From positions 1-28,455 of the IMG/VR virus record IMGVR_UViG_3300004097_002455: a stretch of DNA of 28,455 nt; one strand, given 5' to 3'. The stretch is from a virus. Shown in pieces: positions 4,706 to 28,455 of this stretch. Position 1 is the first letter of the stretch. Each line of letters begins with the position of its first letter. Below the pieces are notes generated by a model, which ran no database searches, was not told the origin of the DNA, and saw only the letters and a list, made by a program, of their open reading frames with translations. The position numbers were made by a program, and so were the translations under genes.

Positions 4706-5488
4706 ATGGCGCGTTCTGCGAACGTACTTCAGGAGTGGGGGATGCCCCTCTTCCTGAGCATGACCCCAGAGGCAAGAGACCTATACATGTTCTTGCTGTA
4801 CTCCCCACCCCCCACCTCCCCATTGGGGCTTATCTGGTACGGCGGCGATAGCGCCTTACCTATATCAGCTCGGAAGGCCGGGGTGGGCTTCGTCAGCGGG
4901 ATCCCCGCGCTAGAGTCTTCTGGGATGGCACAGCATGATCCCGAACTCGGGATTGTTTATTTGCCGCACGCTCTCAACGCAGCTTCGCTGGGCCTGTATT
5001 CTAGCCGCAATATAATTGCATGGGGCTCACGAGTGGGCAAAATGCCCGAATCTCCGCTGCGGGATTTATGGGTGAAGAATTTATTAGGGAAATCGAAAGG
5101 CTGCAAGAAGCAATTGCACGAAAAGGTCCAGCTTATTTTTGGGGGAGAAGCTGCGGGGGGCGAGAGCAAAACGAACTCCAAGGCTGTTGATATCGTCAGG
5201 CACTTCTCTGATAGATTCGCAGAGTCTGGATATGGGGATTATGTTGCTAATTGGGCGAGAGAAGTTGCAATAGCCAAGGAACTCCTAGTTACACTTGAAG
5301 CAGAAGATATAATAAACAGAATAGATCTTTACTTCAAGGACGAATGGCTATCCCAGAATGCTTCAATGGACTTTATATCCTTCAGGAGAAACATTAATAA
5401 GTTCGCTAAGAGCGCAAAATCTATGCCAAGTAAAAAAGATTATTCCGGTTATTGGGATATTATAAAGAACGTGGGTGAGTCTAATTGA
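4706..5488 (+). CDS. Probable replication initiator/helicase-loader-like protein
   Basis: A 260-residue protein starting at the ATG after GGAGG (4696-4700), an ideal ribosome binding site; the frame is open further upstream but that part overlaps the Hjc-like gene. Residues 15-100 follow the pattern of winged-helix replisome organiser N-termini: MTPEARDLYMFLLYSPP, an IPALESSGM turn, then a beta-wing reading DPELGIVYLPHAL. Residues about 165-255 are helical and charged, like loader C-terminal domains. The stop overlaps the TTG start of the primase-helicase (TTGA). Position directly before a replicative helicase supports a role in origin recognition or helicase loading. The family assignment rests on pattern resemblance only; no catalytic motif is seen. 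Confidence 0.6.
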   Translation: MARSANVLQEWGMPLFLSMTPEARDLYMFLLYSPPPTSPLGLIWYGGDSALPISARKAGVGFVSGIPALESSGMAQHDPELGIVYLPHALNAASLGLYSSRNIIAWGSRVGKMPESPLRDLWVKNLLGKSKGCKKQLHEKVQLIFGGEAAGGESKTNSKAVDIVRHFSDRFAESGYGDYVANWAREVAIAKELLVTLEAEDIINRIDLYFKDEWLSQNASMDFISFRRNINKFAKSAKSMPSKKDYSGYWDIIKNVGESN

Positions 5489-7308
5489 AAAATCAGATAT
5501 TGGCATACTTGGACAGCAAGGGCTGGAGATATGTGGAGCAGGGGGGCGAGATCCGATTGCGGGAATGCCCATTTTGCGGTTCCACCTCGCGGGCCCCATT
5601 CTCGATTGATCCACACGAGGGGTTTGCAAAATGCCACAGGTGCGATTGGAAGGGCGGGCTGACCGTACTAAAGAGATCCCAAGGAGACTTGGTGAGCAGC
5701 ATGGAGTCGGTCGCCCCAGTGAAGAAAAAATACGTCAAGCCCCCTCCGCAAATTGCATTGGATTTGCACCAAAGCCTTTTAGGAGATTCTAAAACTCTTT
5801 CCTTGTATCTGAAGTGGAGAGTATTGGATCTAGAGACCATAAAGAAATTTAAAATTGGCTTTGATAAAAAGAGGAATGCAATATCATTTCCTTACTACGT
5901 GAAGGGTGAATTGACCTCTATTAAATTCAAAACAAAAAAACAGGATGGGAGTAAGTTTATTACTCGGTGGACACCCGAAGGGGTTCAGGGAGCAAAGACA
6001 ATATCCACCCTTTACAACGTCGATTCGTTGCGAGGCAATGAAACGGTTTACGTTGTCGAAGGCGAAGAAGACTGCATGGTCCTAGAACAGGCTGGATTCA
6101 AGAACGTGGTAAGCATCCCCAACGGAGCCCAATCCTGCTCAGGGGATTTTCTTGATGCCATCGAGCCTTTCGAGGATATTGTCATTTGTTTTGATTCCGA
6201 TGAGGCAGGCCAAACTGGAGCGAAGAAATTGGCAGAATCGCTAGGTGAAGCGAGGTGCCGAATTACGTTGCTGCCCGAGGGAATCCCGATCGATGAGAAC
6301 GGAGAAGAGGCAAAGGATTTAACCGACTTTGCCCGCGCAGGTCAGCTCCCCATGGCTCTAGAGAAACTTGATGCTGCCGAAGGAGAGGCCCCAGAGAGCG
6401 TCCAGCATATCCGAGAGTTTCTTGAGGAGTTCAAGGAAAGCTTCCTGAACGGCGAAAGAAACAGGGGCGACACTACTGGATTCCCCAGTTTGGACAATCT
6501 AATTGGCGGCAGAAGGCCGGGAGAAATCACGGTGATTTCCGGTAATACTGGAAGCGGCAAGAGCACCTTTTGCTTAAATACTGCTCTCAATATAGCGGCC
6601 ACGGGTGAGGCCGTCCTTCTCGGGAGCTTTGAGCAGACAATCCCCGCCATCATGCGAAAGATGGCGCAGATGATTTCGGGTCGCTGGTTCCACATGCGAG
6701 AGGATGATCTCGGAAGAACTATGAGCGTCGATGATCTCGATAGCGTCATCAAAGTTTTTTCCGAGATACCGCTATATGTCATCAATGTGTTTGGGCAAAT
6801 GAGCACCGAGGAATTTGTCGAATGCGTTAAGTTTGCTCGTCGGAGACTAAAGGTGAAGACGATCATATTGGACCATATCCATTTCATGCTTCGTCACGAG
6901 AGGGCAGACTCTGAGCGCATGGAGATCGACAACACAATGCTCACGCTTAAGCAGTTGACGATTGAGCGAGACCTGTCCTGCTATGTAGTTGCTCATCCCC
7001 GAAAGAAGCAAGGGGATGAGAACCCCGTCATCGGCATTGAGGACTTCAGAGGGTCGAGCTTCATCAGCCAAGTGGCGGATAATGTTCTAGTCGTTTGGCG
7101 AGATAGGGATATATCAAAGCTACACCCGACTATGGGCAGGGCGCAAATACACTCTTTGAAGTGCAGATCGGAGTGTGGCTCTGAAGGAAAGATTGATATG
7201 GCTTTCTCCTATGCTGGTCAAAAATTCATAGACTCTCATACGGAAGAAATTAAGCCAGTATGGAACGACGACGAATACGAGGTGGACGACATTGGAAGCG
7301 AATTCTGA
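5485..7308 (+). CDS. Primase-helicase, T7 gp4/Twinkle-like
   Basis: A 607-residue fusion. The N-terminus is a primase zinc ribbon (Cys28, Cys31, Cys50, Cys53). A TOPRIM domain follows, with VVEGEED at about 190-196 and FDSDEAGQ at 236-243, the acidic residues that bind catalytic metal. The C-terminal half is a DnaB/RecA-type helicase: Walker A GNTGSGKS at 353-360, Walker B TIILDH at 459-464, VVAHPRK at 501-507 and DFRGSS at 520-525. It should unwind DNA ahead of the fork and make primers. The TTG start overlaps the preceding stop by three bases; an in-frame stop at 5476 rules out most longer starts, and the zinc ribbon requires this N-terminus. No DNA polymerase gene is visible in the window. 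Confidence 0.93.
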   Translation: MKNQILAYLDSKGWRYVEQGGEIRLRECPFCGSTSRAPFSIDPHEGFAKCHRCDWKGGLTVLKRSQGDLVSSMESVAPVKKKYVKPPPQIALDLHQSLLGDSKTLSLYLKWRVLDLETIKKFKIGFDKKRNAISFPYYVKGELTSIKFKTKKQDGSKFITRWTPEGVQGAKTISTLYNVDSLRGNETVYVVEGEEDCMVLEQAGFKNVVSIPNGAQSCSGDFLDAIEPFEDIVICFDSDEAGQTGAKKLAESLGEARCRITLLPEGIPIDENGEEAKDLTDFARAGQLPMALEKLDAAEGEAPESVQHIREFLEEFKESFLNGERNRGDTTGFPSLDNLIGGRRPGEITVISGNTGSGKSTFCLNTALNIAATGEAVLLGSFEQTIPAIMRKMAQMISGRWFHMREDDLGRTMSVDDLDSVIKVFSEIPLYVINVFGQMSTEEFVECVKFARRRLKVKTIILDHIHFMLRHERADSERMEIDNTMLTLKQLTIERDLSCYVVAHPRKKQGDENPVIGIEDFRGSSFISQVADNVLVVWRDRDISKLHPTMGRAQIHSLKCRSECGSEGKIDMAFSYAGQKFIDSHTEEIKPVWNDDEYEVDDIGSEF

Positions 7309-12879: not shown

Positions 12880-13212
12880 ATGTCTACTGAAAAAAAAGAT
12901 ACCAAATTTAAACCGGGCAATAAAGCTGCCGCAGGAAGTCGATCGGGCGGGCGTAGGCCTAAGGAGCTAAGTGAAGCTCTGGATGGATATACGCTTGAGG
13001 GCCTTGCGTTGCTGTGGAAAGTGGCGAACGACGAAGAACACGAGTGGCATAAGAAATTTGGCTTTGATGCTTTAAAGAACTTGGTCGGGCACTGTGCTCC
13101 AAAAAGAAAAGAAGTCTCGGGCAGTGAAGGTGGCCCTGTCGAGATTTCATTGGCCAATATGTTTCATAGCGATTCTCTTCCGGGTGAAGATGAAGAGCCT
13201 AGCAATGATTAA
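12880..13212 (+). CDS. Small-terminase-like DNA-binding protein
   Basis: A 110-residue protein. It begins with a basic stretch (KFKPGNKAAAGSRSGGRRPK) like the FKPGxSGNPGGRP starts found in many phage small-terminase-type and DUF5681-like proteins, continues with helices up to about residue 75, and ends in an acidic tail (PGEDEEPSND). It precedes the large terminase by 23 bases, the normal place for the DNA-recognition subunit that selects the packaging site. AAGGTG before the ATG is the ribosome binding site, the same pattern as before the prohead protease. The function is mostly inferred from position and composition. Confidence 0.65.
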   Translation: MSTEKKDTKFKPGNKAAAGSRSGGRRPKELSEALDGYTLEGLALLWKVANDEEHEWHKKFGFDALKNLVGHCAPKRKEVSGSEGGPVEISLANMFHSDSLPGEDEEPSND

Positions 13213-13235
13213 TAAAATAGTTCATAGTATCTAAC

Positions 13236-14675
13236 GTGAGTGCGATCAATGGCGAAATAGGCGAGAGGCTTAAAAGATACCGTTTGCATCCTGCTGCGTT
13301 TGCTAAAGATGTTTTCAATGTAGAATTAGACCCTTGGCAGAAGCAGGCGATGCAGGCCACTGCCGATAATCAAAAGATTGCAATCGCAGGATGCACTGGT
13401 GTTGGCAAAGATTTTCTAGCTGCAAATTTAATTTGGTGGTTTCTATGCACTCATAACTACCCAAAAGTTATTTGCACCGCTGTTAAGAAGGAGACTCTCA
13501 CCGACAACCTTTGGGGCGAAATGTCACGCCTCCAGAGAAGGTCGCCGCTGGTTCAAGAGCTTTTCATGTTCGGCATGACAAAGATTGCCGCGAAGGGCGC
13601 AGAGGAAGAATGGTTTGCGGTCGCTCGAACTACCTCAAAGAAATACTCGGCAGGTGGCGGCAACGCTCAGGCTGAGGGTCTCGCGGGTAAGTATGCAGAT
13701 GATACTTTAGCCGTGGTTGACGAAGCATCCGGCGTGGACGATGCGAACTTTGATGCGCTAGAAGGTAGTGCCAACACTCCTCGCCGTAAGATGCTGGTCA
13801 TTGGCAACCCTCTTAGGAGAACAGGGCGCTTTGCTAAAATTTTCTTAGACCAAAGATTTGGCGAGGGGTGGTACACTCAGCACGTTAGCTATCTCGATTC
13901 AGTTAGAACTTCGGGAACCCCCGAGGTGCGTGCGATCCGAGAAAAGTGGATTGAAATGTACGGCAAGGACTCGGCGTATGTTCAGGCGCGGGTGTTTGGC
14001 AAGTTCCCCGAGTCGAGCACGGATGACACTGTCTTTAGCCGCGAAGAGGTTCAGCTCGCGATGGAACGAGAAGCCGAAGAGGACCTAGAGCAACCCATTT
14101 GCATCGGAGTCGATGTTTCTAGGTTTGGAACGGATGAGACTGTTTATATTGTTAGGCGCGGGGCCAAGATGCTGGACATGGTGTGCGAGTCAAAAACAGA
14201 TGGTCCACATGTGGTTGGGCGATCTATTGCGCTTGCTGAGAAGTGGTCAAAGTCTTGGGAAGAGGCAAAGGATTGCGTTGAATTCCGAGTGGATGAAACT
14301 GGGCTCGGAGGCTCTGGCGTAGTAGATCCATTAGTCGAGCAGGGATGGATGGTCATGGGGGTTCACAATGGCTCAAGATCCTTTATGCCTGACGATTATT
14401 ATAATCTAGGAGCAGAGCTTTGGATGGAAGATGGTAAAGAAGCTCTCCAGACCTGTTCTGTCATCCCTGATGAAATTCTTGCTAACCAATTGGAAATTAG
14501 GCAATATAAGTTTACGGGAAAGTCTAGACAGCGAAGGTTGTCTACAAAAGATGAAATGCGAAGAAGCGGAATTGGTAGCCCTGATAGGGCTGATGCTTTT
14601 ATTTTAGCTTTTGCAGATTCTAAAAAAATAGGTTTGGGCGAAGCGATGCTGAAAGAGTCGATATCTTTTCTATAA
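13236..14675 (+). CDS. terL: Terminase large subunit
   Basis: A 479-residue packaging motor. ATPase: Walker A AGCTGVGKD (51-59), Walker B LAVVDEAS (158-165), coupling motif VIGNP (188-192). Nuclease (RNase H fold): IGVDVSRFGTDE with Asp293, RVDETGLGG with Asp353, and SPDRADAF with Asp453, the three metal ligands. It cuts concatemeric phage DNA and pumps it into the prohead through the portal. The start is GTG, without a clear Shine-Dalgarno sequence; the next in-frame candidates lie too far into the conserved N-terminus. The portal gene begins three bases after its stop. Confidence 0.95.
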   Translation: MSAINGEIGERLKRYRLHPAAFAKDVFNVELDPWQKQAMQATADNQKIAIAGCTGVGKDFLAANLIWWFLCTHNYPKVICTAVKKETLTDNLWGEMSRLQRRSPLVQELFMFGMTKIAAKGAEEEWFAVARTTSKKYSAGGGNAQAEGLAGKYADDTLAVVDEASGVDDANFDALEGSANTPRRKMLVIGNPLRRTGRFAKIFLDQRFGEGWYTQHVSYLDSVRTSGTPEVRAIREKWIEMYGKDSAYVQARVFGKFPESSTDDTVFSREEVQLAMEREAEEDLEQPICIGVDVSRFGTDETVYIVRRGAKMLDMVCESKTDGPHVVGRSIALAEKWSKSWEEAKDCVEFRVDETGLGGSGVVDPLVEQGWMVMGVHNGSRSFMPDDYYNLGAELWMEDGKEALQTCSVIPDEILANQLEIRQYKFTGKSRQRRLSTKDEMRRSGIGSPDRADAFILAFADSKKIGLGEAMLKESISFL

Positions 14676-18809: not shown

Positions 18810-20027
18810 ATGGCTTCAGATAAAAATGTAATTATTCGCGGTGGCGAAGACGAGAATCTTCACACCATGATGGAGGTTCTCGAAGGAATCTCCGCACGTA
18901 CCAAAGAACTTGGTGAAGTAGGTAGTGATGTTGACGAGCTTAAGGGTGCAATCGAGCGCCTGAGCGCCCGTTGTGATCAGTTGGATCGTGAGCTTCCTCA
19001 GGGACAAAAAGTCTTCGAGGCAGAGACTCCTGTAAAGAACGTTGCTCTTCGTGAGTTTGGTTCGCAGATCTCGCAGGCTTGGCGGATCAAGCAGTTTGGC
19101 CGCGCAGCGGCTGGACAGACCTCGGATGCAACTGCTCCGGGTGGCGTGTTGGTCCCGACAATCACCTATGACAAGGTCGCTCGTATCGTTGAAGAGGCTT
19201 CCATCATCCGTAACATTGCTACGGTTGTGCCGATGTCCTCCAACACGATGGTGATGCCGACCCGTTCTAGCGGTCCTTCGGTTAGCTGGTTGGCCGATCA
19301 GCAGATTCTCGCTACCAAAACCTCCGTGATGTTCGATAATCCGACCCTCAGCAGCAAAACGCTGATGGCGATTGACGAAGTTTCGGCTGAGTTGGATGAG
19401 GATTCGATTGTTGCTCTTGAGCCTTTCTTCGCACAGATGTTCGCGGAGGCCGTTGGCAAAGAAGAGAACAAGCAGGCCTTCAACTCCACCACGCCTTTCA
19501 CAGGCGTTTCGAATGACACCAACATCACGTCGGTGCAGATGGGCTCGAACGCTGTACCGAGTGGCTTTAGCCGCGTTTCGCACAACGACCTGATTAACCT
19601 GCAGTACACCGCAGATCCTAAGGTAATTCACAAAGGAACCTTCATTATGCACCCTGACGCATTCAAAGAGTGCGTCGGTCTGAAGGATTCTAACGGTCGT
19701 CCCATCTATGCTTCGGCATGGTACGGTGGTGGCCCGAGCACTGGCGCAGATGCCGGTGATCGTCCTGATCAGCAGCAAGCGGCTCCTGCTGTCCTGCTGG
19801 GTCGCCCTGCGTACCTGACGGAGACCATGCCTTCTGACGGAACGAACAACACTATCTTTGGTGTGTATGGTGACTTCTCTAAGTTTGCATTTGGTGACCG
19901 TAAGCAGATGTCCATTGATTGGTCGGATCAGGTTTACTATGAGTACGGCAACCTTGCCCTTCGGGTTCGCGAGCGTATCGCGATGAAGACTCTCATCACG
20001 GGAGCCTTCTCACGGTTGGCTGTCTAA
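18810..20027 (+). CDS. Major capsid protein, HK97 fold
   Basis: A 405-residue protein with the standard layout of HK97-type capsid proteins. The first 75 or so residues are helical and charged (delta-domain-like). The mature fold follows, with APGGVLVPTITYDKVARIVEEASIIRNIATVVPM, a WLADQQ beta-hinge region, and a C-terminal VLLGRPAYLTETMP segment with a FGDFSKFAFGDR-like strand. The fused protease/scaffold upstream would cleave the N-terminal part. Codon choice is more uniform than in the neighbours (for example many CGT and CTC codons), as expected for the most highly expressed gene. It is followed by a strong terminator. Confidence 0.95.
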   Translation: MASDKNVIIRGGEDENLHTMMEVLEGISARTKELGEVGSDVDELKGAIERLSARCDQLDRELPQGQKVFEAETPVKNVALREFGSQISQAWRIKQFGRAAAGQTSDATAPGGVLVPTITYDKVARIVEEASIIRNIATVVPMSSNTMVMPTRSSGPSVSWLADQQILATKTSVMFDNPTLSSKTLMAIDEVSAELDEDSIVALEPFFAQMFAEAVGKEENKQAFNSTTPFTGVSNDTNITSVQMGSNAVPSGFSRVSHNDLINLQYTADPKVIHKGTFIMHPDAFKECVGLKDSNGRPIYASAWYGGGPSTGADAGDRPDQQQAAPAVLLGRPAYLTETMPSDGTNNTIFGVYGDFSKFAFGDRKQMSIDWSDQVYYEYGNLALRVRERIAMKTLITGAFSRLAV

Positions 20028-20051: not shown

Positions 20052-20088
20052 AGAGGGGCGCGGGTTAATCTCGCGCCCCTCTTTTTTT
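20052..20088 (+). terminator. Strong rho-independent terminator after the capsid gene
   Basis: AGAGGGGCGCG (20052-20062) pairs perfectly with CGCGCCCCTCT (20072-20082) around a nine-base loop, followed by a run of T bases. It is the strongest hairpin seen in the window and would insulate the head operon from the genes after it. Confidence 0.92.
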
Positions 20089-20122: not shown

Positions 20123-20317
20123 ATGAAAGTTAGAATTATTGAAGAAGTCGATACTACTTCGGGAAAGCTAAAGCCCGGCGAGGTATTTCTCCCTAGGGAA
20201 GAGGCTTTGAAATTAATCCGCGAGAAAAAAGCGGAGGCAGTCGCTTCCGCTGGGCAGTTTGTTGCTAGTGGCTTCAAGGGCTCAGACCGCATTATTAAGT
20301 CAATCATCCACCGCTAA
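20123..20317 (+). CDS. Small conserved-type phage protein downstream of capsid
   Basis: A 64-residue basic protein. MKVRIIEEVDTTSGKLKPGEVFLPREEALKLI has the look of the small proteins often found near head genes (beta strands, a PGEV turn, then an amphipathic helix). The ribosome binding site is weak (TAGGC, about 12 bases upstream). TTGACC at 20087-20092 at the end of the terminator could be a -35, but no well-spaced -10 is seen. It precedes the glycosyltransferase cluster by 20 bases. Function unknown; a minor virion component is possible. Confidence 0.6.
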   Translation: MKVRIIEEVDTTSGKLKPGEVFLPREEALKLIREKKAEAVASAGQFVASGFKGSDRIIKSIIHR

Positions 20318-20337: not shown

Positions 20338-20958
20338 ATGGATTGGTCCATACTGGTTGCCACCACCGACTCCCGCTTAAGCAAGTTCTTTGCTCCGCTA
20401 GTCAGCGAAATTAATCGACAAATTAAAATGGCTGGTCTGGAAGATAAGATCGAGGTCTTGGGATTCTACGATGCGGGGATGATGAGCATCGGGGAGAAAA
20501 GAAACGTATTGCTATCTGCGGCTAGAGGCAGTTATATATCTTTTGTGGATGATGACGATTACGTCTCTCCTAACTATATAAAAAACATATACAATATCGT
20601 AGCCAGTGGCGAGTGGGACGCTATATTGTTTAATATCCAGCGCGAGGGGATAGGCACAGAATCAATGCTTTGTCGCCACTCGGTTCAGATTGAGGGGGAT
20701 GGGCACATGGACCATCAACGCGACGCTTGGGTTTCTCCGCCCAATCACATAATGGTTTGGCGAAGCGAGATCGCTAAGTCCAAAAAGTTCCCCCATAAAA
20801 ATTGGATGGAGGATCACGAATGGTCCCGCTCGATTCTGAGTAAAGTCCAGAAGTCTTATTCAATAGAGATTGTTCTCTATTGGTATCGCATGAATATAGA
20901 ATTAGCTGAAGAAAAAGGAATAGAATGGAACTATCATGGCCGACACATAGACAAGTAG
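20338..20958 (+). CDS. GT-A (family 2-like) glycosyltransferase
   Basis: A 206-residue protein. It opens WSILVATTDSR, a GT2-type start, then reaches YISFVDDDDYVSPNYI with the DDDD metal/nucleotide-sugar motif at residues 71-74, and continues to NHIMVWRSEIA and NWMEDHEWS, which fits the acceptor-side acidic motif (EDHEW). It likely transfers a sugar from a nucleotide-sugar donor. It is short for the family, but the core fold appears complete. AGAGGAAC upstream gives a ribosome binding site, and its end overlaps the following glycosyltransferase gene by 34 bases. Donor and acceptor cannot be read from the sequence. Confidence 0.85.
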   Translation: MDWSILVATTDSRLSKFFAPLVSEINRQIKMAGLEDKIEVLGFYDAGMMSIGEKRNVLLSAARGSYISFVDDDDYVSPNYIKNIYNIVASGEWDAILFNIQREGIGTESMLCRHSVQIEGDGHMDHQRDAWVSPPNHIMVWRSEIAKSKKFPHKNWMEDHEWSRSILSKVQKSYSIEIVLYWYRMNIELAEEKGIEWNYHGRHIDK

Positions 20959-21893
20959 TCTATGGACCTCACCTAGGCTATGGCGCTGCGAACGTTAAGT
21001 TACGTGAGGCCATGGGGGGAATAGGAGTAGGGATCACAAAGCGCTCCAAAACAATTGTGCATCTCTGTCGCCCTGATGTATTTAAGCCTATAAAAAAAAG
21101 AAAAAATATTCTTTTTACGATGTACGAAGGCTATCCAGTCCCTGAGGAGTTTGCGAAATCCTTCAAGAGGGCGGATTTGCTGCTGACCCCTTCGAGCTTT
21201 TGCAAGGAAATGTTTGATCCCCTTTGCGACGGCAAGAAGTTCGCAGTCGTCCCTTTGGGTTTTGATGACGCGATCTACCGCTATAGTCCTAGATCTTGGT
21301 GCGATGGCGATCAGTTTGTTTGGCTCTGGGTGGGGGCCCCGAACGCTCGAAAAGGTTGGGATGTTTTGCTGCGCTGCTGGTCAGATTTCTTTGAGGGCGT
21401 TCCTTGGATGCGTCTTATAATGAAGACTACGGCTACCGAGGGAGAGGGCGAAGTAAAAACGTTAGGCAACGTCACTTTCGACAGCCGCCGATATACAGAA
21501 GAGGGGCTAGCCGATCTATACTCAAAGTGTGATGCTTTTGTTTTACCTACGGCGGGCGAAGGGTGGGGGCTAACTATCCTTGAAGCGTTGGTTTCTGGCT
21601 TGCCCATTGTGACCACTACCCATGGCGGGCAAATGGATTTCTTAAATGAAGATTTTGCCTACTTTGCGAACCATGAGATCAAAGAAGTGGTCACGACGGA
21701 AGGAAGCAAATTCAACGCTGCGATAGCGGATCCAAATGACCTCGCTCGAAAGATGCTTCAGGTTGTTTCGGACTACCCCAAGGCCACGCGAATGGCCAAG
21801 CTGGGAAGCGACAATGCCGTAAAGAACTTCACTTGGGCTAATTCGGCTAGTAAAGTTAAAGAATTGATATTGAATAAGTTTGGTGAAAGATGA
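20925..21893 (+). CDS. GT-B (family 4-like) glycosyltransferase
   Basis: A 322-residue protein. The C-terminal half has the GT4 pattern: VGAPNARKGWDVLLRCW (about 137-153), then YSKCDAFVLPTAGEGWGLTILEALVSGLPIV, where Glu212 and Glu220 form the EX7E motif that binds the donor nucleotide-sugar. The N-terminal half is an acceptor-side Rossmann-like domain (LLTPSSFCKEMF, FAVVPLGFDD). At 322 residues the N-terminal domain is somewhat small. The ATG has AGGAATAG before it and overlaps the preceding gene; the last bases overlap the next start (ATGA). It probably adds hexose to a growing glycan. Confidence 0.9.
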   Translation: MELSWPTHRQVVYGPHLGYGAANVKLREAMGGIGVGITKRSKTIVHLCRPDVFKPIKKRKNILFTMYEGYPVPEEFAKSFKRADLLLTPSSFCKEMFDPLCDGKKFAVVPLGFDDAIYRYSPRSWCDGDQFVWLWVGAPNARKGWDVLLRCWSDFFEGVPWMRLIMKTTATEGEGEVKTLGNVTFDSRRYTEEGLADLYSKCDAFVLPTAGEGWGLTILEALVSGLPIVTTTHGGQMDFLNEDFAYFANHEIKEVVTTEGSKFNAAIADPNDLARKMLQVVSDYPKATRMAKLGSDNAVKNFTWANSASKVKELILNKFGER

Positions 21894-22609
21894 AAAAGGT
21901 AGTAGTATTATTAACAACTTGGAATCGGCCAAATCTACTTCGGCAGTCTCTTCCTCAAATCATGGAGCAGGCTTCTAGCATTGGCGCTGATCTGGTTATA
22001 TCCGATGATCAATCTTCGGATACTGAGACTTTGACGCTTTTAGCGGAGGCGGAAAATTCGGGGGCTGTTGTGATCAGGCGCGATTATGACAGGTCGGGGA
22101 TGCGGGCGCATGATGCCACAGGATTAAATAACTTATTTGGATTTAAATACTTGTGCGATAATTATTCAGACTGTGATTTATTCCTGAAGGTAGACGATGA
22201 CACCTATCATGCTCCTGAATCATTTAGAACAATGATTGAGGCTTGGGACAAAGCGGAGTCTGAAGGGAGAGATATTCTCCACATGAGCGGTCTGGCGACG
22301 GAATTTGAGAAAAGGGTTGAGAACTTTGATGGCTATTCAGAAATTAGGAAAGGTTGCAACGCGGCAATACTTTATCGAGCCTCCGATTGGCAATTATTTA
22401 TTCGAGAAGCAAACCCCAAAAACGTTATGCTTGATGGGTTCGATGTTCACTTCATGAGGTTGCACTGGGTAAAGCATCGGGCGGCAGCAAGGCCCTATGC
22501 CGTAAATCCGAGCGTGGTATATCACACTGGCATAACCGGAGTTCACGTCTTGAATACAAATATTAATGTTGATTTCTCGGGTGATACCTCAGGAGTTATT
22601 TTGGAATGA
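21890..22609 (+). CDS. GT-A (family 2-like) glycosyltransferase
   Basis: A 239-residue protein. It opens MKKVVVLLTTWNRP, the classic GT2 start, continues LVISDDQSSD, and reaches LFLKVDDDTY, where VDDD (101-104) is the donor/metal motif. The C-terminal part contains a DGFDVHFMRLHW segment and YHTGITG, which fit the acceptor pocket. Both ends are coupled to neighbours by ATGA overlaps, so it is co-translated with the rest of the cluster. The donor sugar is unknown. Confidence 0.87.
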   Translation: MKKVVVLLTTWNRPNLLRQSLPQIMEQASSIGADLVISDDQSSDTETLTLLAEAENSGAVVIRRDYDRSGMRAHDATGLNNLFGFKYLCDNYSDCDLFLKVDDDTYHAPESFRTMIEAWDKAESEGRDILHMSGLATEFEKRVENFDGYSEIRKGCNAAILYRASDWQLFIREANPKNVMLDGFDVHFMRLHWVKHRAAARPYAVNPSVVYHTGITGVHVLNTNINVDFSGDTSGVILE

Positions 22610-23427
22610 AGAATAAAAAACTAAGCATAGTAATGGCCTACCATAACAGGCCGATTCATTTGAGGAATACTCTTGAGTCTTACTCCGAGCTTTACAATGA
22701 CATAAGGGATGATTTCGAAATTATAATTGTTGATGATTCTTCAGAGTACGAAGATGATCTACTGGAAGTGGTTGCCGATTTCAATTTAGATATAAAGACT
22801 AAATATATAGACAGGATCGATAAGGAGGTTAGGAATCCTTGCGTGCCCTACAATATTGCCATAAGCATGGCGTCTGGGGATTATGTTAATCTAACCAATC
22901 CAGAGAACGCGCACATAAAACCAATACTAAAGCATGCGCTGGATCACATGAATCATGGGAAGTACCTAGTTTATGGGTGTCTAAATTTAAGCACTTGCCC
23001 GCCAAGCTATAAAGATTTGATGACTAATCTAAAAATTTACACCTATCAAAATCTTGAACAAGCGTGGTACCAGCATTCAAGATTTCACAATCGGCTGTTA
23101 CATTTTTGCACTGTAATTAACAGAGATGAGTTAATCAAAATTGGCGGATTTGATGAGAGGTTTGCGGATGGGTCTGGTTACGATGACAATGATTTAATTC
23201 AGACAATTGTGTCGAACGATATTTTGGTAGAGACTGTTGATGACTATTACTGCGGACATCAAGACCACGCCCGTAGCTGGGATGAAGAAAGCACCATGTA
23301 CAATTACAGGATTCTGCACGAAAAGTGGGGCTGCTTCCCCATAAGCTCTTGGGAAAAAGGACGGGAAAAGGAACAACTAGAGGAGGCCGCTCGGGTCAAA
23401 ACTCGCTTAATTCAGTTTGGGGTATAA
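22606..23427 (+). CDS. GT-A glycosyltransferase with NPE in place of a clear DxD
   Basis: A 273-residue protein. The start KLSIVMAYHNRPIHLRNTL and IIIVDDSSE are GT2-like. Where a DxD motif would stand it has GDYVNLTNPENAHI (Asn98-Pro99-Glu100), a variant I associate with galactosyltransferase-like GT2 members. The acceptor side has IKIGGFDERFADGSGYDDNDLI, with the GFDE/DD pattern typical of the catalytic base region. It is coupled to the preceding gene by an ATGA overlap and followed after one base by the radical SAM gene. Activity is likely but the substrate is unknown. Confidence 0.83.
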   Translation: MKNKKLSIVMAYHNRPIHLRNTLESYSELYNDIRDDFEIIIVDDSSEYEDDLLEVVADFNLDIKTKYIDRIDKEVRNPCVPYNIAISMASGDYVNLTNPENAHIKPILKHALDHMNHGKYLVYGCLNLSTCPPSYKDLMTNLKIYTYQNLEQAWYQHSRFHNRLLHFCTVINRDELIKIGGFDERFADGSGYDDNDLIQTIVSNDILVETVDDYYCGHQDHARSWDEESTMYNYRILHEKWGCFPISSWEKGREKEQLEEAARVKTRLIQFGV

Positions 23428-23428
23428 A

Positions 23429-24553
23429 ATGGAAAAATTTAAAACTAGCGCAAGCGGACCATATTCTTCACACAAGGCTGCACACCATTCCGATAAAATC
23501 ATTGAGCTTAGGGAGGGGAAGCAAATTACCCCTTCTTTTATTCAAATCATGATGTCGGATTTGTGCAACGAGAACTGTTCATTTTGCGCATATCGGATGG
23601 ACAACTATACTTCTAATGAGTGGTTTGGTGAATACGATCCAATTAAAAAAATCATAAATAACAACCCCAAAAGGATGATTCCTTTCGACAAGGTAAAAGA
23701 AGTCATTGATGATTGTGTCGATATGGGCATCAAGGCTATTGAGTTTACTGGGGGAGGGGAGCCCACTGTCCATCCGAAGCACAGGGAGGTTTTTGAGTAC
23801 GCTCTAGAGAAGGGGATTGAGATTGGACTTGTCACAAACGGAGTGATCTTGCGCGATGGCATGCTTGATTTAATCCCTAAGTTTAAATGGATTCGAGTTT
23901 CGGTAGATGCGGCAAGGGCTGACACCTATTCTCAAATGAGGGAAGTCCCAGAAAACTTCTTTGAGAAAGTAATAATCCACTTAGAGAAAATTGTGGCGGC
24001 GAAAAAGCAATCAAAGTCAGATTTAGTTATTGGGGTAGGATTTGTTGTAACAAAAGAAAACTATAAAGAGATAGAAGATGGAGTGGAGCTTTTCCATAAT
24101 ATCGGAGTAGACAACATTAGGATGTCCGCAGTATTCCAGCCGGATGATGCTGATTACTTTTCCGAGTTCTATGAAGAAGCGAGGGATTCTGCTCGGCGCT
24201 CAGTCGCCAAATATCAGTCGAAAGACTATAGAGTATTTAATTTATTTGGAGATCGGCTAGGCGATCTTGAGCAGCAGAACCCAGAGTATAGCTTTTGCGC
24301 TTTTCAGCAGTTCCAGTGTATCGTGGGTGGGGACCAGAACATATATAGATGTTGTAATACTGCATACAATCCAGTTGGATTTTTGGGTTCCATTAAAAAC
24401 CAGTCTTTTAAGGAGCTTTGGGAGTCGCGAGAGAAGCAGAAGCTCATTGACGGGCTGGATGCAAAAGACTGCCCTCGATGTATGTTCAATGCGAAGAATC
24501 GTTTTATCAATTATTTAATTGATGACGAACCTCCGCATGTTAACTTCGTATAG
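23429..24553 (+). CDS. Radical SAM enzyme with SPASM-like C-terminus
   Basis: A 374-residue protein. The cluster-binding motif CNENCSFC (Cys46, Cys50, Cys53) is the canonical CxxxCxxC, followed by FTGGGEPT (about 106-113), the SAM-binding glycine-rich strand. The C-terminus has further Cys residues in FCAFQQFQC, YRCCNTAYN and KDCPRCMF with a LGSIKNQSFKELW spacer, as in SPASM domains that hold auxiliary clusters. Related enzymes modify peptides or carry out sugar epimerisation or dehydration. GGGGT lies about seven bases before the ATG at 23429; the upstream TTG at 23417 is less likely. Its place inside the glycosyltransferase run suggests action on sugars or on the glycosylated protein. Confidence 0.88.
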   Translation: MEKFKTSASGPYSSHKAAHHSDKIIELREGKQITPSFIQIMMSDLCNENCSFCAYRMDNYTSNEWFGEYDPIKKIINNNPKRMIPFDKVKEVIDDCVDMGIKAIEFTGGGEPTVHPKHREVFEYALEKGIEIGLVTNGVILRDGMLDLIPKFKWIRVSVDAARADTYSQMREVPENFFEKVIIHLEKIVAAKKQSKSDLVIGVGFVVTKENYKEIEDGVELFHNIGVDNIRMSAVFQPDDADYFSEFYEEARDSARRSVAKYQSKDYRVFNLFGDRLGDLEQQNPEYSFCAFQQFQCIVGGDQNIYRCCNTAYNPVGFLGSIKNQSFKELWESREKQKLIDGLDAKDCPRCMFNAKNRFINYLIDDEPPHVNFV

Positions 24554-24562
24554 TGTTTTGCT

Positions 24563-25618
24563 ATGTGGTACTTGTCTAAGATTCCGAAAGTTGCTCACTT
24601 TTATTGGGGCAACAAGTCCATGCCTTTTTCTAGGTTCTTTACAGTTGCTTCCTTTGCAGCGCTGAATAAAGATTGGGAGATTCGCCTGCATGTCCCTGAG
24701 GAGTTGTCGGATAGCCTGAAGCTCACATGGGCTAGCCATGAGCACAGGAGGTTGCCTCGACGGAAAAATGCTCCTGAGATTAAATGTTATTGGGACAAGG
24801 TAAAAGCAATCCCCAATGTTCGGATATGCGAACAGGATCTTGGATTTTTAAAGTCTGCCTCCGAGGTTCATAAATCAGATTTTCTGCGCTGGGGCTTGCT
24901 CTCCAAGGACGGCGGCCTTTGGAGTGATATGGACATTGTCTACTTCAGGCCAATGGATGATTTGTATCTCAACCGAAAAAGCCCCGAGGTCGTAAATGTT
25001 AATGGCCTGAAGCACTACGTTGACTCAAGTAAGGCAACTGAAGTAGTTAGTGTAATGGGGCATACGAATTCTATAGGGTTTCTCATTGCCGAACAGGGCT
25101 CTAATTTTTTCAGCGATGTGGAGGAAGGGTGCCTAGAAATGGTTTCGTCTAATGGTCTGGAGCTGATCGGAAAGGATTATCAATCTATAGGCAGGGAAAT
25201 CATGGACAACATGGTAAATGAGGCTACTCTGGATAAGAAAGTGCCATATTACACCGTAAAAAAAGATTGCAAATCAGGCGACAACGAGATTTTGATGATG
25301 GTCAAAGTTCATAATGATTCCGTTCATGGGGATTTTATAATGAAGGAATCTGAAGGAATTAATAATCTAGATATGGCAGTAGTGTATAGCCATACTGACC
25401 CAGTAATTCATTTGATGGTAGATCCTTCGCATGAATATGATGCTTTCGATGATGAGCCTTTTGCTATTGGTACGCATTGGTATGGGGGGCACCCCAAGAT
25501 GGGGCCATATATGGACATGCTGGACGAGCATAATGTGTACAATATGCAGCCAAACCCGATGATTAATATTATCAAAAGGGTGCTTGATGATCATCGAGAC
25601 TATTTATTCCCCGCGTAG
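24563..25618 (+). CDS. GT32-like (DXD sugar-binding) glycosyltransferase
   Basis: A 351-residue protein. It opens with KIPKVAHFYWGN, the IPKxIHxxWxG start of GT32-type enzymes, and has VHKSDFLRWGLLSKDGGLWSDMDI at about 102-125, where DMD (122-124) is the DXD motif. Downstream residues include HWYGGHPKMGP, a likely substrate-binding loop. It is the last enzyme of the cluster and lies nine bases after the radical SAM gene, without an evident ribosome binding site. Family members transfer mannose or galactose to surface or protein-linked glycans; the sugar here is not readable. Confidence 0.85.
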   Translation: MWYLSKIPKVAHFYWGNKSMPFSRFFTVASFAALNKDWEIRLHVPEELSDSLKLTWASHEHRRLPRRKNAPEIKCYWDKVKAIPNVRICEQDLGFLKSASEVHKSDFLRWGLLSKDGGLWSDMDIVYFRPMDDLYLNRKSPEVVNVNGLKHYVDSSKATEVVSVMGHTNSIGFLIAEQGSNFFSDVEEGCLEMVSSNGLELIGKDYQSIGREIMDNMVNEATLDKKVPYYTVKKDCKSGDNEILMMVKVHNDSVHGDFIMKESEGINNLDMAVVYSHTDPVIHLMVDPSHEYDAFDDEPFAIGTHWYGGHPKMGPYMDMLDEHNVYNMQPNPMINIIKRVLDDHRDYLFPA

Positions 25619-25637: not shown

Positions 25638-26195
25638 ATGCCCAACGCCAAATCAACTTTAACCGTAGATGGACTAACTAGCGATAGTGGATCTATTTCG
25701 GTTTCAAGTACCGCAGATAGTGGCTCGACTCTTCTGCCCGACAACCTTACACTGAATCAGACGAGTTCGTCATATTATGGGCGGTTAGATACTATATCTG
25801 CGCCTAATTTTACCATAGGAGCATCGGGAGATACAAAGTTGATATTTGGTGGATCGGCCTTCCCCGTCACGAGCGGGCAGACAGTATACTTGGGTTCTGG
25901 GATTGATGGCACCGAAGCTAACGCTCGGATTAGCCTTATTGCTTGTACAGCAAAGCAGATACAGGTTTCTTCTAGCGCTGCTCCGGGCACAGGGGAGAGC
26001 TTTGTGTATACAATTATGAAGAATGGATCTGCTGATAGCACCTTCGTCGTAACTGTAGCAAACTCAAGTACTTCGGGAAGTGCCAGCGATAGCTCTGGAA
26101 CATCGTTCAGTAACGGCGATTACATTTCTGTGCGGCTCGTAACCAGCAGCGGAGCTGCGACAGCGCACCACAGCTTTTCTATAAAGATTGAATAG
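25638..26195 (+). CDS. Ser/Thr/Gly-rich beta-structured protein, probable virion or fibre component
   Basis: A 185-residue protein with very high Ser, Thr, Gly and Ala content and almost no charged stretches, suggesting extended beta structure as in fibre or baseplate-decorating proteins. The last half reads like a beta-sandwich (FVYTIMKNGSADSTFVVTVAN, then YISVRLVTSSGAATAHHSFSIKIE). There is no signal peptide. It lies directly between the glycosyltransferase cluster and the long fibre, 11 bases before the latter. The abundance of Ser/Thr makes it a possible acceptor for O-glycosylation; that is inference. No recognised domain. Confidence 0.65.
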   Translation: MPNAKSTLTVDGLTSDSGSISVSSTADSGSTLLPDNLTLNQTSSSYYGRLDTISAPNFTIGASGDTKLIFGGSAFPVTSGQTVYLGSGIDGTEANARISLIACTAKQIQVSSSAAPGTGESFVYTIMKNGSADSTFVVTVANSSTSGSASDSSGTSFSNGDYISVRLVTSSGAATAHHSFSIKIE

Positions 26196-26206
26196 TTAGG
26201 TATCGA

Positions 26207-28455
26207 ATGAAAACAAAAATTAAAATCTTAGCTCTTTCAGTTTTTGCATGCATCGCCACTTCGGGTGATGCATTTGCTGTTCAAGCCACAGCTCCGATCA
26301 GCGCGAACAATGGGGTGATCGCTCTTCAGAGTTGCGCGGATGGCCAAGTGCTTAAGTGGGAAGATGACGACACCGCTTGGAAGTGCGCTTCGGATAACAA
26401 TAGCGGTGGTGGTGGTGGTGGTCAGCTTACCGAGGAGGAAGTTGAAGACTATGTCGGCGGAATGTTGGGCGGCACGGAAACTGGCATCTCGGTAGCGTAT
26501 CAAGACAGCACTAATGATATTGACTTTGTGGTTGCCGATATGACTGTGGCTGGCGACAGCGGCTCCACAGGGATCACCCCCGGCGATACGCTTACGGTGG
26601 CTGGATCGGGAACAGTAAGCACCGGAATGAGCGGTGATACTTTAACTATCACAGGGAGTGCGCACACTACTCCGGGGGGCTCTAACGGGGAGATCCAATA
26701 TAGGCAAAATGGCACAAGCTTCGCTGGGACCAGCCAGCTTACTTACGACGGTACTAACTTTTCGTACACGATTACAAGTGGCGATGAGTTTGCGGCGAGT
26801 AATACATTCAAGGAGGTCCGAAATGAGAGCGGGGCGACCATTTACAAATGCGCAGCCGTATATGTTTCAGGGTACGACACCTCCACGAATCTGCCATTGG
26901 TTAGTGTCGCAGATTCTGACGACTCGAACAAGATGCCTGCTATAGGCTTGCTCAATGAAGACTTGGCGAATAATTCAAATGGCTTTGTAATATCCGGTGG
27001 CACAGTATCGGGTTTGGATTCAAGTACTTCGGAATCTTGGAGCGAGGGTGGTTCGTTGTATGTTAACACAGCAGGGACATCCGGGAGCGATGATTGCGGG
27101 GAGACTCTTACGAGCACCCGCCCCACTGGCGCGAGCACGCGAATACAGTCGATGGGATTTGTAACCAGAGTTAATCCTTCGCAGGGCAGAATACTGGTGA
27201 ACAATGCAGGTAGGACCAATGACGTTCCGAATATAGCTAGCGGTAATATTTGGGTCGGGAATTCTAGTGGGATCGCAACTTCAACCAGTGTTTCTGGCGA
27301 CATCGCAATCACAAACACGGGAGTTGTTTCCGTACAGGCCAACTCTGTTGCTTTAAGCACGGATACCACGGGCAACTACGTCGCGAGTGCGACAAGCAAC
27401 GGCGGGCTGGCTCTCACTGGTACAGAGGGCGGATCTCTGGGGATAGCCTATGCCAACGTGCCAGATGACACGAACGATGGTGCCACTGGGGACTCTATTA
27501 TGGTGCTCGATGCAGACGATAGCAATGCGCTTAAGCGTATTACCTTGGCAGAGCTAGACACCCTAATAGACACGGACACTAATACCCAACTGACAGAGGA
27601 GCAAGTTGAAGACTTTGTTGGTGGGATGCTCGGCGGGACTGAGACTGGCATTGCTGTAACTTATAACGACACCGACAATGATATTGACTTCGCGGTTGCC
27701 GACCTGACTGTTGCCGGGGACAGCGGCTCTACGGCAATGACTCCGGGGGACACCTTAACTGTTGCGGGTTCAGGGACTGTGAGCACGGCCATGAGTGGGG
27801 ACACCTTGACCATTACGGGAAGCGCACATACCACCAATACCAATCTTAGTGTTGAGGCAGTAGAGGATATCGTAGGTGGCATGTTGGATGGGACTGAGAC
27901 TGGCGTTGCGGTTTCTTACGACGACGACGGCGGTGCGAACATTGATTTTGTGGTTGCCGACTTAACGGTGGCTGGCGACAGTGGCTCTACGGCAATGACT
28001 CCGGGGGATACCTTAACGGTAGCTGGGTCTGGCTCGGTTAGCACCGCCATGAGCGGCGACACCCTGACAATCACTGGAACTGACAACAATACGACTTACT
28101 CAGCTGGGGATGGATTGGACCTTAGTACCACTACGTTTAGTACTGATCTAAAGAGTGGCAGCGGATTGGTAATTACGTCCACTGAATTGGATATCGACAC
28201 CGACGTTATCCAAGCTAGAGTATCGGGAACATGTAGCGCGGGCAATTCGATCCGAGTAATCGCGGCTAACGGCACAGTTACATGTGAGGCCGATACTGAT
28301 ACTAACACAAATCAGCTCACTACTTTCACCCTGACAGGGGACTCTGGATCAAATCAGACTATCGAGCAAGGAAGTACTTTTGATATCGCTGGCGGGACCA
28401 ACGCGACAACCGTGGTCGGTGCAACTGATACTGTTACGATCAACGTTGATGACGC
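26207..28455 (+). CDS. Long repetitive tail-fibre-like protein with Sec signal peptide, 3' end cut by window edge
   Basis: At least 749 residues, still open at the window end. Residues 1-24 (basic start, hydrophobic core, SGDAFA before the predicted cut) form a textbook signal peptide. A six-Gly linker follows at about residue 67. Three copies of an 83-84 residue unit (about 73-155, 461-543 and 546-629) contain VGGML, GTETG, VAGDSGST, PGDTLTVAGSG and MSGDTLTITG. Between copies 1 and 2 is a domain with YVSGYDTSTNLPL, VNNAGRTNDVPN and GNIWVGNSSG, of the type found in tail fibres of environmental phages. Composition is dominated by Thr, Ser, Gly, Asp and Ala. It is probably the receptor-binding or lateral fibre; the signal peptide is unusual for a virion protein. 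Confidence 0.82.
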   Translation, partial: MKTKIKILALSVFACIATSGDAFAVQATAPISANNGVIALQSCADGQVLKWEDDDTAWKCASDNNSGGGGGGQLTEEEVEDYVGGMLGGTETGISVAYQDSTNDIDFVVADMTVAGDSGSTGITPGDTLTVAGSGTVSTGMSGDTLTITGSAHTTPGGSNGEIQYRQNGTSFAGTSQLTYDGTNFSYTITSGDEFAASNTFKEVRNESGATIYKCAAVYVSGYDTSTNLPLVSVADSDDSNKMPAIGLLNEDLANNSNGFVISGGTVSGLDSSTSESWSEGGSLYVNTAGTSGSDDCGETLTSTRPTGASTRIQSMGFVTRVNPSQGRILVNNAGRTNDVPNIASGNIWVGNSSGIATSTSVSGDIAITNTGVVSVQANSVALSTDTTGNYVASATSNGGLALTGTEGGSLGIAYANVPDDTNDGATGDSIMVLDADDSNALKRITLAELDTLIDTDTNTQLTEEQVEDFVGGMLGGTETGIAVTYNDTDNDIDFAVADLTVAGDSGSTAMTPGDTLTVAGSGTVSTAMSGDTLTITGSAHTTNTNLSVEAVEDIVGGMLDGTETGVAVSYDDDGGANIDFVVADLTVAGDSGSTAMTPGDTLTVAGSGSVSTAMSGDTLTITGTDNNTTYSAGDGLDLSTTTFSTDLKSGSGLVITSTELDIDTDVIQARVSGTCSAGNSIRVIAANGTVTCEADTDTNTNQLTTFTLTGDSGSNQTIEQGSTFDIAGGTNATTVVGATDTVTINVDD
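26423..26671 (+). repeat. Fibre repeat unit, copy 1
   Basis: An 83-codon unit beginning QLTEEEVEDYVGGML and ending LTITGSAHTT. It matches copies 2 and 3 at protein level almost throughout and at DNA level in stretches; it carries TGITPGD and VSTGMSGD where the other copies have TAMTPGD and VSTAMSGD. Confidence 0.88.
27587..27835 (+). repeat. Fibre repeat unit, copy 2
   Basis: An 83-codon unit beginning QLTEEQVEDFVGGML and ending LTITGSAHTT, same length as copy 1. It is closest to copy 3 in the central VAGDSGSTAMTPGD segment. Confidence 0.88.
27842..28093 (+). repeat. Fibre repeat unit, copy 3
   Basis: An 84-codon unit beginning NLSVEAVEDIVGGML and ending LTITGTDNNT, directly following copy 2 after two codons. 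It has one extra residue in the Asp-rich YDDDGGANID segment. Confidence 0.85.

Follow-up and report, generated by a model that had tools for sequence, protein, structure and literature searches.

Background

Freeman and colleagues are said to have described, in 2023, virion glycosylation by the mycobacteriophages Che8, Corndog and Myrna. Che8 gp108–110 form a module of three glycosyltransferases (GTs); glycosylation of the Che8 capsid is reported (PMC12363180, PMC11256854), and gp110 is the protein named as essential for it. In pelagimyophages, clusters of GT and radical SAM genes near fibre genes have been read as modifying the host LPS (PMC7029224). Glycosylation of phage virions and clusters of GT genes in phages are both known already, the former having been demonstrated mainly in actinophages so far. 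The locus described here suggests that compact, swappable glycan cassettes with a radical SAM enzyme may lie beside the capsid gene in environmental phages outside the actinophages.

Genomic context of the cassette

The window, by which we mean the whole analysed stretch, is a 28,455-base virus record with terminase, portal, HK97 capsid, recombination, primase/helicase and ribonucleotide reductase genes; its replication genes lie at 0.9–12 kb. The gene for the HK97-type major capsid protein (18810–20027, + strand; Pfam Phage_capsid 1.8e-39, phrog_10 4e-44) is located just 5′ of the site studied here, referred to as the slot, and a strong intrinsic terminator-like hairpin at its 3′ side (20052–20082, +; 13-pair stem with a T-tract) parts it from the downstream unit. 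The left border of the slot is o20123 (20123–20317, +), encoding a 64-aa conserved protein with homologues at the equivalent place in L001, L002, L003, L044 and L045, of which the L045 copy matches DUF7302 (5.7e-6). At the right border lies ST185 (25638–26195, +), with a Ser/Thr-rich N-terminal half and a C-terminal jelly-roll/C1q-like module. It is followed by a fibre-like protein (26207–28455, +) which is open at the window end, has a predicted Sec signal peptide and matches phage fibre modules at about residues 179–366.

Six genes, all on the + strand, fill the slot. The first, gtA (20338–20958), encodes a GT2/GT-A enzyme (Pfam GT2, 5.4e-6) of the subfamily of Che8 gp108, Avani gp105 and Ronaldo gp122. 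It is followed by gtB (20925–21893), a GT4/GT-B enzyme (Pfam GT4, 1.3e-14), and by two more GT2/GT-A enzymes, gtC (21890–22609; PF00535, 2.3e-5 in the window and 1.8e-6 in L001) and gtD (22606–23427; PF00535, 5.8e-10), the latter with a GT7-C-like part (PF02709, 7.5e-4). The last two are rsE (23429–24553, its ORF opening at TTG 23417), a radical SAM enzyme (PF04055, 1.1e-18), and gtF (24563–25618), a GT32-like enzyme with an Och1-type DXD (PF04488, 9.9e-6).

An earlier note, made from the letters of this DNA alone, had proposed the same six enzymes at 20338–25618 (+) and had placed them between head and fibre genes; Pfam backs each of the assigned classes, and the flanking capsid gene upstream, with ST185 and the fibre downstream, bears out the location. 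The genes from o20123 to the fibre are consecutive, with overlaps or short gaps. The single overlapping run that the note described holds for the first five cassette genes, gtA to rsE, which overlap or abut, but not for gtF, which starts after a gap of 9 bp. Its description of a complete multi-step set is too strong, because genes for sugar-nucleotide synthesis, lipid carriers and flippases are absent from the six. On the other hand, the two Ser/Thr-rich proteins that it saw directly downstream are clearly so, with Ser plus Thr at 32% in ST185 and 26% in the fibre, against 8–15% in 21 other window proteins.

Conservation of the cassette in a relative

In L001, another IMG/VR record, terminase, portal, capsid, o20123, the six cassette genes and an ST185 homologue are present in the same order as in the window. 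The cassette is neither a product of chance nor an assembly accident. Protein identities between the window and L001 are 53% for gtA, 61% for gtB, 69% for gtC, 52% for gtD, 76% for rsE and 35% for gtF, with 75% for ST185 and 80% for the capsid protein. Across the cassette codons, third positions are 32–42% identical and second positions 64–89%. Change is held back at positions 1 and 2 and has come close to saturation at position 3, which indicates purifying selection on the cassette proteins. The most divergent cassette gene is gtF, and its faster change would fit an enzyme that adds an outer, variable sugar.

Empty, filled and refilled versions of the slot

The backbone of this phage group is capsid, the small conserved ORF o20123, the cassette where there is one, ST185 and fibres. 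In L003, whose capsid protein is 60% identical to that of the window, the capsid gene, an o20123 homologue (about 5337–5543) and an ST185 homologue at 5658 follow each other with nothing between; the ST185 match outscores every one of 2000 shuffles in the comparison with the window protein. The L003 contig stops shortly after ST185, thus the site is empty there, which is not proof that a cassette is absent elsewhere. L045 (69% GC, capsid 40% identical) has the capsid gene, an o20123 homologue, a different enzyme set, an ST185 homologue (38%) and a fibre. Its slot contains a gtB homologue (38%), the only cassette gene common to L045 and the window, together with a weakly ATP-grasp-like protein whose match lies under the Pfam cut-off, two GT2 enzymes and a methyltransferase. 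The slot of L044 begins as in L045, and a Pfam search found no radical SAM gene in the L044 and L045 records. With the site empty in L003 and otherwise occupied in L045, o20123 and ST185 border a slot that may be empty or hold different sets of sugar enzymes, and it is probable that phages of the group exchange the sugars placed on their own particles.

Six other contigs (L002, L004, L005, L007, L019 and L020) end before or at the slot and are uninformative on the presence of a cassette. L002 breaks about 24 bp past o20123, and L004 and L005, which come from a single sample, each end at capsid residue 272. This variable locus tends to interrupt assemblies, hence cassettes there may be under-counted.

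Two observations concern other parts of the relatives. On the − strand and away from the slot, L026 (15061–16227) and L027 (15279–16475) encode a protein of 390–400 aa starting M(K/R)(S/T)AILFTGQLRTIQRTA, whose L026 copy had no Pfam match. The left end of a 33-kb relative (L028, 1–8000) is repetitive, GC-rich sequence with no clear genes, possibly foreign or mis-joined.

The cassette enzymes

No membrane segment was found in any cassette protein (maximum KD19 1.28), and the cassette has no flippase, polymerase or lipid-carrier enzyme. The membrane-segment scan found no GtrA flippase, GtrB membrane transferase or polytopic Gtr in the cassette, where matches to GtrB phrogs were weak and N-terminal. 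This argues against a Gtr or Wzx/Wzy route, and it bears on whether the enzymes alter the LPS core, O-chain or capsule of the infected host, so that competing phages are excluded or released virions are kept off debris. Such remodelling would account for a cassette near fibre genes, since both would concern the host surface, and both the cassette and the fibre vary; moreover, the pelagimyophage host-recognition clusters, which join fibre, GT and radical SAM genes, have been interpreted in this way (PMC7029224). A radical SAM relative in the cyanophage SynMITS9220M01 also adjoins ADP-heptose genes. Against it, the cassette has no Wzx/Wzy, no GtrB-type bactoprenol transferase or any other membrane protein, and expression with the late structural unit would come late for superinfection exclusion. 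Host-surface remodelling is the main rival reading, which we regard as possible but rather unlikely.

Among 50,697 phage records, all matches of gtA were to actinophages (35 of Mycobacterium, 22 of Gordonia and 2 of Actinoplanes). It is homologous to actinophage GT modules, with 30–32% identity to the gp108/gp105/gp122 subfamily over 182–195 aa and with DDDD and M-(S/T/L)-(I/L)-G-x-KRN motifs in common. No meaningful blastp match was found between the cassette proteins and Che8 gp109 or gp110, which leaves room for remote homology. The phage record searches gave no match for gtC, gtD and gtF. The PF04488 match of gtF is over the curated cut-off both in the window (26.6 v 23 bits) and in L001 (23.2 v 23 bits), and a profile match to Och1 (9n3s) was obtained at 0.0048; the AlphaFold model of gtF was set aside, its mean pLDDT being 38. 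In a comparison with serine-rich adhesin glycosylation loci, which have GtfA/GtfB and accessory SecA2/SecY2, gtB matches GtfA only weakly (TIGR02918; 18.5 v 574.6 bits), and the cassette has no Sec genes. A lone gtB-like GT (gp21) lies between head and tail-chaperone genes in the Arthrobacter phage DanielleIgnace.

In an alignment of six sequences, rsE has a CX3CX2C motif and four invariant C-terminal Cys residues, which, on the sequence pattern, would be expected to hold one auxiliary cluster. Its SPASM match (0.0016; 19.1 v 21.5 bits) is under the Pfam cut-off. In a PDB profile search MoaA, BlsE and peptide maturases appeared at similar scores, so the scores do not separate substrate classes for rsE. 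The nearest bacterial relative found (31%, L042) lies beside genes for PF01973 (a Maf-type domain), NeuB, a UDP-GlcNAc 2-epimerase and a CMP-sugar synthetase, and Maf-type loci are a setting for cytosolic protein glycosylation. In phages, the unrelated podovirus MW202801 has radical SAM, GT, PhyH, methyltransferase, deacetylase and GT genes directly past the capsid gene; HTVC008M has its radical SAM relative near a methyltransferase, a carbamoyltransferase and a UDP-glucose dehydrogenase-like gene; and LR756501 has one with a GT2 nearby. One distant rsE match (L036) had terminase-like neighbours and no sugar context.

A further reading is a role at the nucleotide level, such as DNA hypermodification, in which the GTs would glycosylate modified bases of the phage DNA, as some known phage GTs do. 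The scan of the window proteins recognised no enzyme that hydroxylates or hydroxymethylates bases, the cassette is in the late structural unit rather than with the replication genes, and in bacteria the rsE relative has neighbours of glycan synthesis. Such a role appears scarcely probable.

ST185 and fibres as candidate acceptors

ST185 is present in all four informative contigs (the window, L001, L003 and L045). Its AlphaFold model is confident for about residues 98–185 only, a beta-sandwich. Foldseek against viral proteins favoured collagen-like and tropism-determinant-type phage proteins (best E 9.5e-9), and matches to solved structures were weak (E 4e-3 or worse). The fold reached Z up to 8.5 against a phage spike knob and a BclA tip, and capsid cement jelly-rolls scored about 7.3; values of 7–8.5 to so many jelly-rolls do not separate a fibre tip from a capsid cement protein. 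As modelled, ST185 would be one or the other, a fibre tip or a capsid decoration. It had no match in the phage record searches. The end of the L003 contig (5770–5919), inside the ST185 homologue, has short tandem EVSGSYFGRIDTQS-like repeats, which may belong to a genuine stalk or stem from the end of the assembly.

The earlier note had asked whether the cassette and the Ser/Thr-rich proteins are gained and lost together. ST185 also occurs in L003, which has no cassette at this site. The L003 homologue is nearly as Ser/Thr-rich (0.29), thus we rejected Ser/Thr richness as evidence of glycosylation.

A stretch of 649 bp in the L001 fibre (12881–13529) is 95.4% identical in DNA to L045 8641–9289, with a GC3 of 0.88 against 0.44–0.60 in the neighbouring L001 genes. 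An assembly chimera was considered and judged unlikely, because L001-like sequence of lower GC flanks the segment on both sides. The exchange of this segment appears recent, across phages of about 45% and 69% GC, each retaining its own signal-peptide start. The window and L001 share the cassette and differ in their fibres; L001 and L045 share the fibre segment and differ in their cassettes. Fibres and cassettes are therefore unlinked, and the test that the earlier note had set for a fibre acceptor went against it in both directions. The fibre as sole acceptor was rejected as a simple idea.

Tail fibres assemble in the cytoplasm, and Sec signal peptides on them are unexpected. Sec-type starts of fibre-like proteins were seen in the window (26207–26280), L001 (12815 and 13563), L045 (8569), L050 (7354), L051, L052 (9794) and L053, of which the last looks lipoprotein-like; the cyanophage and Flavobacterium phage relatives of the fibre that were checked had none. 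Perhaps these signal-peptide-bearing proteins receive their sugars in the cytoplasm and then leave through the host Sec system to coat the infected cell and not the virion, much as bacterial serine-rich adhesin loci couple cytoplasmic glycosylation to later export. In favour of this, n-h-c signal peptides were detected in the window fibre, both L001 fibres and the first L045 fibre and in none of 22 other window proteins, by a basic scoring method whose false rate is not negligible; and L001 and L045 differ in the initial part of the signal peptide, yet its character is kept in both, while the remaining fibre is 95% identical in DNA. However, signal-peptide fibres also occur in L050–L053, with no GT cassette seen nearby, and ST185, which adjoins the cassette, has no signal peptide. 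We give such an exported glycoprotein little chance.

A proposed role for the cassette

A glycan built on virion proteins, as the earlier note had proposed, is the best-supported reading, given the late-operon position, the lack of membrane components, the Che8-type GT subfamily and the rsE relative in a Maf/NeuB-like locus; the part that did not stand is the fibre as acceptor. The cassette lies between the capsid gene and the ST185/fibre genes in the window, L001 and L045. Against this reading, gtA resembles Che8 gp108 by about 30% only, and gp110, not gp108, is the protein named essential; also, ST185 is Ser/Thr-rich in the cassette-free L003, and fibres and cassettes exchange independently. 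On balance, we lean slightly towards the cassette glycosylating virion proteins in general. That ST185 is the main acceptor is more tentative, a possibility short of probable, although it is the best candidate and the capsid protein the next.

In the scheme that we infer, with its acceptor, its sequence of steps, the part played by rsE and the gain for the phage, the late operon of a tailed phage would carry the cassette as a modular glycosylation island, whose soluble enzymes draw on host sugar nucleotides. During late expression, a short O-glycan would be built in the cytoplasm, directly on a structural protein from the same transcript; ST185, a constant neighbour with a Ser/Thr-rich stalk and a jelly-roll tip, is the candidate. 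rsE probably alters one sugar by radical chemistry and gtF probably attaches the variable outer sugar, and the phage may benefit from an altered virion surface as met by hosts, predators or other phages. A bolder version, which we consider unlikely, makes the slot a dedicated exchange site that switches the particle glycan, a phage serotype switch, with the independently swapped Sec-signal fibres perhaps exported; a single locus would then determine the coat of the virion as well as a coat that the phage gives to the infected cell. Because the slot occurs empty, filled and refilled, the locus lends itself to testing.

Comparison with known systems

Our literature search (open-licence papers) found no description of a compact capsid-side slot that has conserved borders, occurs empty as well as refilled, includes a radical SAM enzyme and goes with fibre exchange independent of the cassette. 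The earlier note had called the cassette unusual, which is fair for its composition but less so for the association of GT and radical SAM genes near fibre genes, as reported in pelagimyophages (PMC7029224). As in those host-recognition clusters, GTs, a radical SAM enzyme and fibre genes are mixed here in a variable region of marine phages; theirs, however, are islands of 30–45 kb in large T4-like phages, whereas the window has one compact slot between capsid and ST185, with conserved borders, in an HK97-type phage. The podovirus MW202801 (Manatee Spring podovirus ctQWt234) likewise has a radical SAM and GT cassette immediately past the capsid gene, but its backbone is non-homologous, its enzymes are different (PhyH, methyltransferase, deacetylase) and its radical SAM protein is 25% identical to rsE. 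The Maf/NeuB-type flagellin glycosylation loci, in one of which the L042 relative of rsE resides, also use soluble enzymes that act on protein, while the phage cassette has no Maf, NeuB or CMP-sugar genes. With Che8, Corndog and Myrna the locus shares phage-encoded soluble GT modules, gtA being homologous to Che8 gp108 (30%). In Che8, by contrast, the three GTs are at the far genome end, away from the capsid gene and without radical SAM, GT4 or GT32 enzymes, whereas the six genes of the window form part of the late unit and occupy a slot that relatives have empty or refilled.
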